A program made the translations under genes and the position numbers. From positions 962,317-1,005,091 of the forward strand of contig CP070651.1 in the NCBI GenBank assembly GCA_020354625.1: DNA of 42,775 nucleotides, written 5' to 3'. Positions 6,214 to 38,680 of this stretch are shown here, in pieces. This stretch comes from Trueperaceae bacterium. Lineage in GTDB: Bacteria > Deinococcota > Deinococci > Deinococcales > Trueperaceae. A model generated the notes under the pieces. The model had not been told where the DNA came from and made no database searches. It worked only from the letters and a program-made list of their open reading frames with translations. The stretch's first letter is position 1; each line of letters begins with the position of its first letter.

Positions 6214-6385
6214 TCTATGGTAACTCGGCTTCGCTTAAGCGTTATACTGTTAGGCGTCAATACCGCAGCCGGATATAGGGAGGGGCGATGTTCGCGATCG
6301 CCCACCGGCAACCTCCAGTGCGCTTTGCCAGGGAGAGATATTGGGTGAGGCCGGTTGGGTTACAGATCTGAAACGGCCCCCACCT

Positions 6386-6448
6386 TTTGCTTAACCTCGC
6401 TCTGCTCGGGTGATCTTGGCACTGCCAAGATCACAGAAAGACAGTTTA
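6386..6448 (+). repeat. Palindromic repeat family A, copy 1 (3' end of csaB)
   Basis: About 63 bases nearly identical to 13468–13530. The core at 6410–6434 is a perfect palindrome, GTGATCTTGGCA, C, TGCCAAGATCAC (12-base arms, 1-base centre). The right edge, AGAAAGACAGTTTA, contains on the reverse strand the TAA stop codon of csaB (6448–6446), so the element begins exactly where csaB ends. It may act as a terminator-like hairpin, although no T-tract follows. Confidence 0.75.
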
Positions 6449-7438
6449 GTGGTGCAAATTGCTGTCTAGCCATGCAAGTCCCCGCAGGGCACGAGATCGC
6501 AACGCGGTCATAGCTTGCGGTTCAGGGACCGGTTGTTCGAGGGCGACGCGAATCAGGCTGCTAGGATCTGGTGGCAGGTCGAAAGCTGGCGCTCCGGCTT
6601 CGTCCAAGAAGGCTGCTACCTTGGGATCGTACACAAGGCCAGAGAATCCGCGTCTGCATGCGGCAGCCAAGATGAGGCCGTGTAGTCTTGCGGATATGAC
6701 ATACCGTGCACATGCCGTGTGCAAGAGGGCTTCCCGGTAGCTTGTCGCCCTGAGGTGCGTTGTTTCAGGTGCTGAGGTGAGAATCTGTTTTACAGCAGCT
6801 TCATCACGTTCTGGGTGGAAGGCGAGAGTTGCAACCGGAAGGCCCTTTTTATTCAAGGCGACAGCGACTTGTGTTAGAGCAGATGTGACATCAGGATAGG
6901 CATCTCGTGGGATGAGTAGCACGGGCGCTTCAGGGTGTGGATCTATAGCCTGGTTTGGTCCAAAAAGGAGCAAGGCAGGGTCTGCAACGAGCTCGGCCTC
7001 GATGTGGTATTGCGCAAGGAGTGATTGGGAAGGTCTGTCTCTGACGGCGATAGGCAGACCGGTTAGGGCTTTGACGACGCTTTGCAGGCCACGGTTGCTC
7101 AGAGGTCCGATCGATTGACCGAAGATGATCACGCGTTTGCCTATGCGTTTTGCCAGTTGGATAAGAGATAAGTAGTAAAGGAGACTCCGCCTACTGGTTC
7201 GATCCTGCAAAAGTCCCCCACCTCCGGAGATCAGTACGTCGGTCGTCAGTAGAGCAGGTAGAACCCCGCGAGTTCGATGAACCGCACCGACGCCGTGAAG
7301 ACATTTTGTTTCATGGGGATCCTGTGACAACACCGTCACTCGGTGTCCGTACTCCGTGAGGTGCGAGGTGAGCACTGCAAGAATCGCTTCGTCCCCGATG
7401 TTGCCGAAGCCGTAGTAACCGCTAACAAGTATATTCAC
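6446..7438 (-). CDS. csaB: CsaB-type polysaccharide pyruvyl transferase
   Basis: The 330-residue protein starts MNILVSGYYGFGNIGDEAIL, the hallmark of the polysaccharide pyruvyl transferase family (PF04230). Further on come ISGGGGLLQD near residue 70 and SARLHGLILAAACR near 250–265, both conserved in CsaB. CsaB transfers a pyruvyl ketal from phosphoenolpyruvate to a secondary cell-wall polymer, which then anchors S-layer proteins through SLH domains. The start is GTG at 7438, overlapping the stop of the DUF5693 gene by 4 bases (GTGA), so translation is probably coupled. The TAA stop lies in the edge of repeat family A. Confidence 0.9.
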   Translation of the reverse strand: MNILVSGYYGFGNIGDEAILAVLTSHLTEYGHRVTVLSQDPHETKCLHGVGAVHRTRGVLPALLTTDVLISGGGGLLQDRTSRRSLLYYLSLIQLAKRIGKRVIIFGQSIGPLSNRGLQSVVKALTGLPIAVRDRPSQSLLAQYHIEAELVADPALLLFGPNQAIDPHPEAPVLLIPRDAYPDVTSALTQVAVALNKKGLPVATLAFHPERDEAAVKQILTSAPETTHLRATSYREALLHTACARYVISARLHGLILAAACRRGFSGLVYDPKVAAFLDEAGAPAFDLPPDPSSLIRVALEQPVPEPQAMTALRSRALRGLAWLDSNLHH

Positions 7439-9428: not shown

Positions 9429-9506
9429 GTTTCTTTTGTATGCCACACTATATTGTTTGGTCCCGCTGTGCCAGGTCAAACAACGGGAAATCATATCAGG
9501 CGTGCA
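9429..9506 (+). repeat. Palindromic repeat family C, copy 1 (3' side of udk)
   Basis: About 78 bases that match the reverse complement of 24199–24274 with scattered differences. Shared blocks are GTTTCTTT, TGTTTGG, CCCGC, CAAACA, GGAA and TCATATCAG. The central hairpin is decayed here (TTGTTTGG … CAAACAA), while the other copy keeps a perfect 17-base stem. It lies between the 3' end of udk and the 5' end of the DUF5693 gene, both read leftwards, so it is transcribed after udk if at all. Confidence 0.6.
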
Positions 9507-9556: not shown

Positions 9557-11880
<2,324 letters not shown>

Positions 11881-13426: not shown

Positions 13427-13530
13427 TAAACCGTCTTTCAGTGCACTTGTCATGCCAACTGAACGCATTTGCTTATACTCGCACTGCTCGGGTGATCTTG
13501 GCACTGCCAAGATCACCGAAAGGCGGTTTA
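13427..13530 (+). repeat. Palindromic repeat family A, copy 2, with terminal inverted repeats
   Basis: A 104-base unit bounded by TAAACCGTCTTTC (13427–13439) and GAAAGGCGGTTTA (13518–13530), a 13-base terminal inverted repeat with one mismatch. Inside lies the perfect palindrome GGTGATCTTGGCA, C, TGCCAAGATCACC (13491–13517). The right 63 bases match 6386–6448 closely. It resembles a miniature inverted-repeat element without coding capacity and sits just after the coaBC fragment, near where that gene was cut short. Confidence 0.7.
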
Positions 13531-18313: not shown

Positions 18314-18419
18314 GTAAAGCAGGTATCATCTGGTCATAGACAAAGTCAGTGGGTGAAAACCTGTCCTGTAGCCCATTTCTTGGATGATACCTGCTTACAT
18401 AATTGTGGCAACCGCTTTA
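18314..18419 (+). repeat. Repeat family B, copy 1 (MITE-like, 106 bases)
   Basis: The 106 bases match the reverse complement of 37081–37186 at about 92 % by my hand alignment (8 differences, no gaps). The first 85 bases are bounded by inverted arms GTAAAGCAGGTATCATC (18314–18330) and GATGATACCTGCTTAC (18383–18398); a 21-base tail ending in CCGCTTTA follows. It has no coding capacity of its own. It abuts the gene remnant that follows. Confidence 0.8.
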
Positions 18420-24198: not shown

Positions 24199-24274
24199 TG
24201 AGCGACTGATATGACTTCCTGGTGTTTGGCCCCGCTGTGCGGGGCCAAACACCAGCGTGCTCTATGAAAGAAAC
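24199..24274 (-). repeat. Palindromic repeat family C, copy 2 (3' end of aroA)
   Basis: The core at 24219–24255 is a perfect palindrome: CTGGTGTTTGGCCCCGC, loop TGT, then the exact complement. The flanks (rightward edge GAAAGAAAC, leftward edge CTGATATGA) match copy 1 at 9429–9506. It starts 11 bases after the aroA stop. The 17-pair hairpin would be very stable in RNA and could terminate or protect the aroA message, though no T-run follows. Confidence 0.7.
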
Positions 24275-36978: not shown

Positions 36979-37080
36979 CCTGCGAATTCGTTCTGCTGAG
37001 GGTAGCCGAGCAGCCGACCCCATACTAGGCTTCATTCCGGTGTTCAGTGCGCTTTTCGCGCCGACGTAATGCCTCTCTTG

Positions 37081-37186
37081 TAAAGCGGTTGCCAAAATTA
37101 TGTAAGCAGGTATCATCCAAGAAACGGGCTACAGGACGGTATTTCACCCACTGACTTTGTCCGTGACCAGATGATACCTGCCTTAC
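37081..37186 (-). repeat. Repeat family B, copy 2 (MITE-like, 106 bases)
   Basis: This is the inverted counterpart of 18314–18419, the same length with eight mismatches. The inverted arms are kept. It begins about 100 bases after the small membrane-protein gene and is followed within 10 bases by a degenerate repeat A copy, so two different element types stand side by side here. Confidence 0.8.
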
Positions 37187-37195
37187 TCACCCGCA

Positions 37196-37235
37196 AGTAA
37201 TCTTGGCAGCGACCGGATCACCGAGAGACTGTTTA
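37196..37235 (+). repeat. Palindromic repeat family A, copy 3 (degenerate; 3' end of gcdH)
   Basis: AGTAATCTTGGCA, then a decayed arm GCGACCGGATCACCGA, then GAGACTGTTTA. The right edge equals that of copies 1 and 2, and its TTTA supplies, on the reverse strand, the TAA stop of the acyl-CoA dehydrogenase gene (37235–37233), just as in csaB. Confidence 0.55.
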
Positions 37236-38423
37236 GAAAGCGTTTTGCCCAGTGACCTCACGTCCCAATACGAGAGTGTGAACTGTGTCCGTACCTTCAT
37301 ACGTGGAAACGGTTTCGAGGTTGAGCATATGACGGATGCTGGCATACTCAGTGGTAATCCCATTAGCTCCCAACAGATCGCGTGCAGCTCTCGCTGTTTT
37401 CAAGGCTGCGCGGACGTTGTCGCGCTTAGCGAGAGAAACCCTGGCAGGGGTGTCTCTGCCATCTTCTTTGAGACGTGCCAGATGATAAGCCAAGAGGCTC
37501 CCTTTGGTAAGATCACCCAGCATATCTGCCAAGCGAGCCTGAACGAGCTGTTTGCTGGCTAGCGGCTTCCCAAAAACTAGGCGGTCTTCAGTGTATCGAG
37601 CAGCCTCTTCAAAACAACCGAAACCAGCTCCGAGGACGCCGAAAGCGATTCCGAAGCGTGCTTGGTTGAGGCAAGAGAGGGCACCTTTCAGCCCCCTGAC
37701 TTCGAGTCGATGGCTTATCGGCACAGCGACCTCATCGAGATAAAGTTCCGAGGTTGCTGATGCCCTCATGGAGGCCTTGGTTTTGATATCGACGGCCTGA
37801 AAACCTTCAGTGTCCGTTTCGACCACAAATCCCAAGATTTCGTTGCTCTCTTCCTCTTTTGCCCAGATGATGGCGATGTCGGCTAGTGTACCGTTTGTGA
37901 TCCACCGTTTTACTCCGTTGAGGAGGTAGTGTTCACCGACTCGGCGAGCTCTCGTACGCATATTGGCTGGGTCGCTGCCCGCATCTGGTTCTGTAAGGCC
38001 GAAGCAGCCAATAGCTTCTCCGCTAGCCAATTTGGGCAGCCAAGCGTTTTTGAGACGTTCAGAGCCGTAGCGGTAGATCGGATACATCACCAGGCTCGAC
38101 TGAACACTTACAAAGGATCTCATGCCGGAATCCGCGTATTCGAGCTCCCGATTTACCAGACCGTACGCAGTATAAGAGGCCTCTGATCCACCATATCTTT
38201 CCGGCAAGGTTACCCCGAGCACACCTAGCTCTCCGAATTGGCGTGGCAGGTACTCAGGGAAGACGCCCTGTGTCCACCACGCGTCTATGTGAGGTCTGAT
38301 CTCACTCTGGACAAACTCGCGAACGCTATCTCGAATGAGACGTTCTTCGGGAGTATACAAGGGCTCCAATTCGAAGAAATCCTCGAGATGCGTACGCGTT
38401 GCGCGGGTGATTGTTCCGATCAT
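37233..38423 (-). CDS. Acyl-CoA dehydrogenase, glutaryl-CoA dehydrogenase-like
   Basis: This protein of about 396 residues has the acyl-CoA dehydrogenase layout: FFELEPLYTPEERLIRDSVR near the N-terminus, GCFGLTEPDAGSDPANMRT (about 130–148), GVKRWITNGTLADIAIIWAK, FGKPLASKQLVQARLADML, and STYEGTDTVHTLVLGREVTG at the C-terminus with the catalytic base Glu near 376. The sequence is closest to glutaryl-CoA dehydrogenase, which decarboxylates glutaryl-CoA to crotonyl-CoA in lysine and tryptophan breakdown. I used ATG 38423, which has GAGGGGG upstream and begins MIGTITRATR, and not the upstream ATG 38501 that lies inside the preceding gene. Its neighbour upstream ends 14 bases earlier. Confidence 0.9.
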   Translation of the reverse strand: MIGTITRATRTHLEDFFELEPLYTPEERLIRDSVREFVQSEIRPHIDAWWTQGVFPEYLPRQFGELGVLGVTLPERYGGSEASYTAYGLVNRELEYADSGMRSFVSVQSSLVMYPIYRYGSERLKNAWLPKLASGEAIGCFGLTEPDAGSDPANMRTRARRVGEHYLLNGVKRWITNGTLADIAIIWAKEEESNEILGFVVETDTEGFQAVDIKTKASMRASATSELYLDEVAVPISHRLEVRGLKGALSCLNQARFGIAFGVLGAGFGCFEEAARYTEDRLVFGKPLASKQLVQARLADMLGDLTKGSLLAYHLARLKEDGRDTPARVSLAKRDNVRAALKTARAARDLLGANGITTEYASIRHMLNLETVSTYEGTDTVHTLVLGREVTGQNAF

Positions 38424-38437
38424 GGAATCGCGCCCCC

Positions 38438-38680
38438 TCAACCCTCTCCAAAGAGCTTTTTCATCGCATCGGCTTTGCTGGTGCGTTTTGCGATATGCCA
38501 AAGCTCTCCTTGCTTGTCGAGCCTCCCCTGTTTCACAAGAACCTCCAAAGCAGCCTCGATTGTGTCGACGGCTAGCTCTTCGTAGTGATGCTCATCGATA
38601 AAACGTTGGATTTGTCTGAGAGTGGTGCCAGTAGAACCGTGAAACTCTACGGCTTCGAACACCCAATCATCAACAGTCAT
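38438..38680 (-). CDS. Small winged-helix-like protein
   Basis: The 80-residue protein reads MTVDDWVFEAVEFHGSTGTT, then LRQIQRFIDEHHYEELAVDT, then IEAALEVLVKQGRLDKQGE and a final RTSKADAMKKLFGEG. The helix–helix–wing pattern suggests a DNA-binding winged helix; similar proteins occur in Deinococcus genomes without known function. It precedes gcdH by 14 bases, so the two are probably co-transcribed, and it might regulate that operon. Confidence 0.72.
   Translation of the reverse strand: MTVDDWVFEAVEFHGSTGTTLRQIQRFIDEHHYEELAVDTIEAALEVLVKQGRLDKQGELWHIAKRTSKADAMKKLFGEG

Follow-up and report, generated by a model that had tools for sequence, protein, structure and literature searches.

The window, the whole 42,775-nucleotide stretch analyzed here, corresponds to positions 962317-1005091 of a single-contig genome of 4.286 Mb (a ~4.29-Mb chromosome). 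It contains three copies of a small repeat without coding content, which we call element A, and two of these border the 3′ ends of the csaB and gcdH genes (Table 1). The complete unit is 104 bp long (TAAACCGGCTTTC...GAAAGACGGTTTA). The intact copy begins with TAAACCG, ends with CGGTTTA and has a strong predicted fold (z -5.8); 12 of the 13 terminal bases pair, also in the covariance table, giving A imperfect terminal inverted repeats. A preliminary description of this DNA had recognized one palindromic repeat at 6386-6448, at 13427-13530 and, degenerate, at 37196-37235. Sequence comparison agreed that the three places hold the same repeat, but not with the boundaries, two of the copies being larger than was thought. 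The segment 6386-6448 is the right portion, still well preserved, of a copy that has decayed (90% identity to the 13427 copy), while 37196-37235, taken for a whole degenerate copy, is just the right end of a longer A element that is interrupted by a second repeat, element B. The same description had noted that the TAA at the right edge serves as the stop codon of csaB and gcdH in two of the three window copies, and this was indeed the case. At 13427-13530, no convincing gene is closed by either edge.

Table 1. Copies of elements A and B, and the gene stop codons at their edges, in the window.
Feature	Positions	Strand	Detail or basis
Element A, left half degenerate	6351..6448	+	Covariance model match 6351-6448
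TAA stop of csaB (6446-7438, minus strand; polysaccharide pyruvyl transferase, PF04230)	6446..6448	-	Right edge of A; CAC-TAA
Element A, complete 104-bp copy	13427..13530	+	Terminal inverted repeats 13427-13439 and 13518-13530; core ACTCGCACTGCTCGG; hairpin GGTGATCTTGGCACTGCCAAGATCACC
Element B, second window copy	18315..18419	-	Sequence comparison
Element A, degenerate, split by element B	37033..37235	+	Sequence comparison
Element B, 105 bp, inserted in A at a TTTA site	37081..37185	+	TAAAGCGGTTGCC...ACCTGCCTTA here; usual right end GCTTTA; TA at both ends
TAA stop of gcdH (37233-38501, minus strand; acyl-CoA dehydrogenase/glutaryl-CoA dehydrogenase type)	37233..37235	-	Right edge of A; TTC-TAA

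BLAST and a covariance model together brought out about 42 copies of A in the genome, ranging from near-identical to heavily decayed, mostly intergenic and dispersed over the chromosome. Miniature inverted-repeat elements (MITEs) are small (about 50-500 bp), noncoding, multicopy and dispersed, with terminal inverted repeats and a target-site duplication. Element A agrees with this definition in its size, copy number and terminal inverted repeats and, on the indirect evidence given below, in a duplication of TA. We therefore regard A as a non-autonomous, MITE-like mobile element with a subterminal hairpin, filed under no IS family; this assignment is part of an overall explanation that we consider very probable. 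As far as could be checked, A has so far gone undescribed. A search of the window against Rfam 15 at the gathering score matched only tRNAs, placing A in no known RNA family; exact patterns of its hairpin had no match in the genome contigs and viral contigs searched, and BLAST with A had none in 60 relatives and plasmids.

Other small repeats were seen alongside A. A second A-type subfamily in the same genome (3425482-3425586; about position 334 of L089) has the same core, with other terminal repeats (TACAGCGGATTGC) and another hairpin. The 29-bp sequence TGTTTGGCCCCGCTGTGCGGGGCCAAACA, perfectly or almost perfectly palindromic, is present in the window at 9454-9482 and 24223-24251 and is possibly another small repeat. 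Short degenerate arrays of CCCATCACTCATTA-like units, all intergenic, adjoin several elements (the equivalent of window 870-930 in L074, and the flanks of L009, L023 and L024).

Homologues of A, reached by covariance models only, are present in a phage region and in several further genera. They share a conserved core (ACTCGYTCYRCTCGG), after which comes a hairpin that varies in sequence, and their terminal repeats diverge. The model built on A detected related repeats in two other genera, and a second model detected 34 copies in one relative. A few more came from others, among them two genomes of other families, and the membership of weaker matches was decided by model score and sequence inspection. 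Among ten representatives, mean pairwise identity was 0.86 in the 16-nt core region but fell to 0.41-0.46 for the terminal repeats and 0.36 for the hairpin arm. The arms nonetheless remain complementary over 9-12 bp, and compensatory changes in the hairpin were seen across both copies and genera. TAAACCG and TATAGTCCG are tips found in the family. One relative (G012; L202-L217 and L221) carries a form of 126-128 nt, with about 23 extra bases inside the conserved core that include a short inverted repeat, CAGTCTCGACTG. Fifteen of the 16 viral matches to the core pattern were chance matches with no hairpin. One family member, at 10719-10822 of a viral contig (L229), lies in a phage structural module, where an ORF of 76 codons upstream of the gene for the major tail protein takes its stop from the edge TAA of the element. 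The core is thus kept over several genera, at least two families and a phage. It is possible, though we think it doubtful, that the family identity and mobility of A rest on this 16-nt core and the adjoining free-sequence hairpin, both with putative roles, and not on the terminal repeats. If this were true, A would be a small mobile element recognized via its core and structure, by some enzyme or as RNA. The wider family combines a conserved core with exchangeable ends and can be carried by phage DNA.

Genome-wide, the stop codon of a gene coincides exactly with the edge TAA in 12 copies of A, at 13 edges in all, with genes near the elements called by a 3-periodic Markov model trained on long ORFs rather than by a standard gene finder. 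Besides csaB and gcdH, the genes concerned include those for a dGTPase-type HD hydrolase, an independent phosphoglycerate mutase, a thiolase, a PEP-hydrolase-like protein, an FtsX-type permease and a glyoxalase, among others. One copy occupies a site common to two convergent stop codons, and two such sites are present in the background described below. The relatives showed a similar picture: 10 of 43 stop-triplet edges close an ORF of at least 80 codons, compared to 3 of 168 in an out-of-frame control. In a form from another genus whose left end reads TATAG, and which consequently restores no stop at that end, long ORFs abut the TAAAG right end only (4 of 4).

What sequence does A insert into? 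A pyrimidine lies to the left of the left TA and a purine to the right of the right TA in 37 of the 42 copies, the exceptions being decayed copies. This arrangement at occupied sites, Y-TA-(A)-TA-R, points to a YTAR target whose TA has been duplicated. Element B (TAAAGCGGTTGCC...GATGATACCTGCTTTA), a TA-ended repeat of 105 bp that is unrelated to A in sequence and has at least 40 copies in the genome, provided a second view of the same event. In four cases where A and B abut, there is a single TA at the junction, as would be expected if the later insertion had duplicated the TA at the end of the earlier element. Where B lies inside A, in two copies, TA is found at both ends of B where A has one TA, clearly so in the window copy. 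Furthermore, a homologue of A in another genus interrupts GTTAAAAAGCCGAAT-TA-ATTTCGGCTTTTTAAC, which forms the loop of a bidirectional terminator palindrome that is intact apart from the insertion; the palindrome is restored when the element is left out, and this locus therefore serves as a natural empty site. A search for paralogous empty sites for A itself, using joined flanks, yielded none. From the flanks, the A-B junctions and the homologue, we infer that A probably duplicates TA on insertion. As a separate observation, B was several times nested in or abutting A, and the next base on its right was C in about half of the copies (window copies and L042-L071).

The number of stop codons expected at such sites was estimated from 20 sampled stretches and the window, 282 kb in total or 6.6% of the genome. 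These contain 999 YTAR sites, 687 of them coding, 250 intergenic and 62 at stop codons; 62 of the 312 non-disruptive sites (20%) are therefore already stop codons. For A, the original sites were restored computationally by removing the element, and stop codons made up between 11 of 37 (P 0.10) and 13 of 39 (P 0.03) of them, the latter count including two edge stops where the other side is decayed. At 30-33% vs. the 20% expected, the excess beyond the YTAR background is at most mild. The preliminary description had proposed that a distribution of further copies without relation to stop codons would speak against the association; across the genome the copies do relate to stops, in 11-13 of 37-39 non-disruptive cases. 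The surroundings of A are also biased. Copies between convergent genes are enriched (13 of 36 vs. 28 of 230 YTAR sites, P 8e-4) and copies between divergent genes depleted (3 of 36 vs. 68 of 230, P 0.007). Element B also favors convergent genes (12 of 24 copies, P 3e-5), and 5 of 24 B copies have edge stop codons, no different from A (P 0.56).

The explanation that we favor requires no special targeting of gene ends. In this genome, A would insert at the TA within YTAR and duplicate it. YTAR holds TAA or TAG on each strand, and the target would consequently include many genuine stops, those in which a last codon ending in Y is followed by TAA or TAG. With element ends that start TAAA, a stop codon hit in this way would be regenerated, the gene would read ...Y-TAA and nothing would be lost. 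Insertions at stops would then be tolerated like others downstream of genes, while those inside genes or upstream of divergent genes would mostly be lost. We consider it highly likely that the stop association reflects this combination of target sequence, self-restored TAA and purifying selection. Most of the tendency of the repeat to end at a stop would follow from the TA target and the TAA-reading ends, making special targeting or a terminator role needless, and the fact that the unrelated element B behaves like A suggests that these two features, and not a property specific to A, are the common factor. Transposition of A would be carried out by a transposase acting in trans, and the convergent-gene bias would come from selection rather than targeting. 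Of the two suggestions originally made for the pattern, a target preference at 3′ ends survives as a link to stop codons, but not to the 3′ end as such, since the target is YTAR, a fifth of whose permitted sites are expected at stops anyway, with a weak excess over this. Co-option of the repeat as a stop codon applies only in a passive sense, the terminal TAA of the element taking the place of the original TAR.

A more active version, in which A, over and above its preference for a tetranucleotide, is targeted to gene 3′ ends (e.g. to terminator hairpins or regions of convergent transcription), would account for the convergent enrichment of A and B, for the homologue in the loop of a bidirectional terminator and for the slight excess of stop-codon sites. 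However, the convergent excess of A is no longer significant once the stop-codon copies are removed (P 0.12), and the same enrichment is found in two unrelated elements here and in the pneumococcal BOX, RUP, SPRITE and IS elements, where Croucher and colleagues read it as tolerance (PMC3049150). We therefore judge active targeting to be unlikely.

We think it unlikelier still that copies of A now serve by co-option as transcription terminators or mRNA 3′-end stabilizers, those next to stops being kept by selection. The element does have a stable hairpin of 11-13 bp just within its right edge, with the compensatory changes described above, and in this genome 9 of the 13 edge stops lie at that end. 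Such a 9:4 split in orientation is nevertheless not significant (two-sided binomial P about 0.27), and a hairpin required for mobility would be equally expected to show the covariation. Many copies are decayed, and every type of gene arrangement is represented. The terminator function put forward in the preliminary description finds no support in the structure: an intrinsic terminator is a GC-rich hairpin followed by a T-run, but no T-run follows the hairpin of A in either direction, and a terminator scan called no site at the elements. A role of A in mRNA 3′ ends thus has no positive support.

The origin of the mobilizing enzyme was approached through candidate families, and no autonomous partner with ends matching those of A was found among the IS630 models and IS1634 ends compared. 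IS630 was the first suspect for its preference for TA in CTAG, and the YTAR sites of A fit this preference. A model search for an IS630 transposase in this genome found none, the two weak, sub-threshold matches being IS3-like, and no IS630 gene with matching inverted repeats was found; IS630 was accordingly rejected as the resident partner. The partner may have been lost from this genome or be of a family beyond those searched. Integron attC sites also follow stop codons and were considered for this reason; they were rejected by inspection, as the ends of A depart from RYYYAAC/GTTRRRY and cassette arrays are absent.

An origin of A by deletion from the resident IS1634-family (DUF4277) insertion sequence is improbable. 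The IS1634-type ends read CCGTCTTTCCGACC, have AAACCGTCTTTC at one end in common with A, and a transposase remnant stops ~100 masked bases before an A copy. Against this parentage, a complete IS1634 element of the same type in a relative is flanked by a 6-bp duplication, TTGTAC, and not by TA, a difference in duplication length that weakens the connection. Element A has neither the 5-6 bp target duplication nor the ends of an IS1634 derivative: the IS1634-type ends lack its TAAA/TTTA, and its homologues in other genera carry different tips. It should be noted that an IS1634-family (DUF4277) transposase gene with 18-bp ends (CCGTCTTTCCGACCCCCC) lies at 300059-301678 of the genome (L074/L094), and that an A copy at 2315074-2315117 is located about where a decayed relative of this IS should have its right end, beside 100 masked bases.

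Finally, the edge genes appear to be intact. All eight with a Pfam match reach the end of their C-terminal domain profile, and the gcdH product aligns up to its final residue with an orthologue encoded in a Bacillota MAG; the gene for that orthologue ends in TTC TAG, itself a YTAR stop. Among genes running inward toward A, 13 end in frame at the edge and a single weak ORF passes it out of frame (P = 6e-6 for an expectation of 1/3). The complete C termini, the gcdH orthologue and the single overrunning ORF argue for original stop codons, and it is scarcely credible that A truncated its neighbors and supplied TAA as an accidental new stop, since a gene entered in the right frame would always stop at the edge TAA but about two thirds of the genes should overrun the edge in the other frames. 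Insertion at YTAR with a self-restored TAA offers an explanation, in quantitative terms, for the frequency with which small mobile repeats supply the stop of an adjacent gene. Stop codons would be a predictable safe harbor, and this null model should be subtracted before terminator or regulatory co-option is claimed.

Several known elements resemble A in some features. RUP of Streptococcus pneumoniae (107 bp), for which mobilization by IS630-Spn1 has been proposed, is likewise ~100 bp long, with inverted repeats, a TA target, a strong fold and convergent-gene enrichment (PMC2229807, PMC3049150). RUP differs in that an IS630 with matching ends is resident, and for A no such element was found. 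The ERIC/IRU/RU-1 elements of enterobacteria and the Correia/NEMIS elements of Neisseria differ from A in sequence. Like A, they are small, noncoding and foldable, with TA termini and a TA duplication (PMC2229807, PMC2759123). They are of other length, and the family of A is set apart by a core that is better conserved than its terminal repeats. The IS630/Tc1-mariner elements also insert at TA with duplication, and the preference of IS630 for TA in CTAG, in the passage of PMC2170065 that cites Tenzen and Ohtsubo 1991, fits the YTAR of A; the setting differs in that this genome yielded no IS630 transposase. A parallel to the edge stops is pneumococcal BOX, which differs from the single 104-bp, TA-ended unit of A in being modular (boxA/B/C), but likewise has gene stops inside the repeat, convergent enrichment and elements inserted in one another (PMC3049150). 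The preliminary description knew of no such element, which holds for A within what could be searched but not for the phenomenon: BOX encodes the stop codon of 36 genes without clear truncation (Croucher and colleagues, PMC3049150), and stop codons supplied by a mobile repeat therefore have a precedent.
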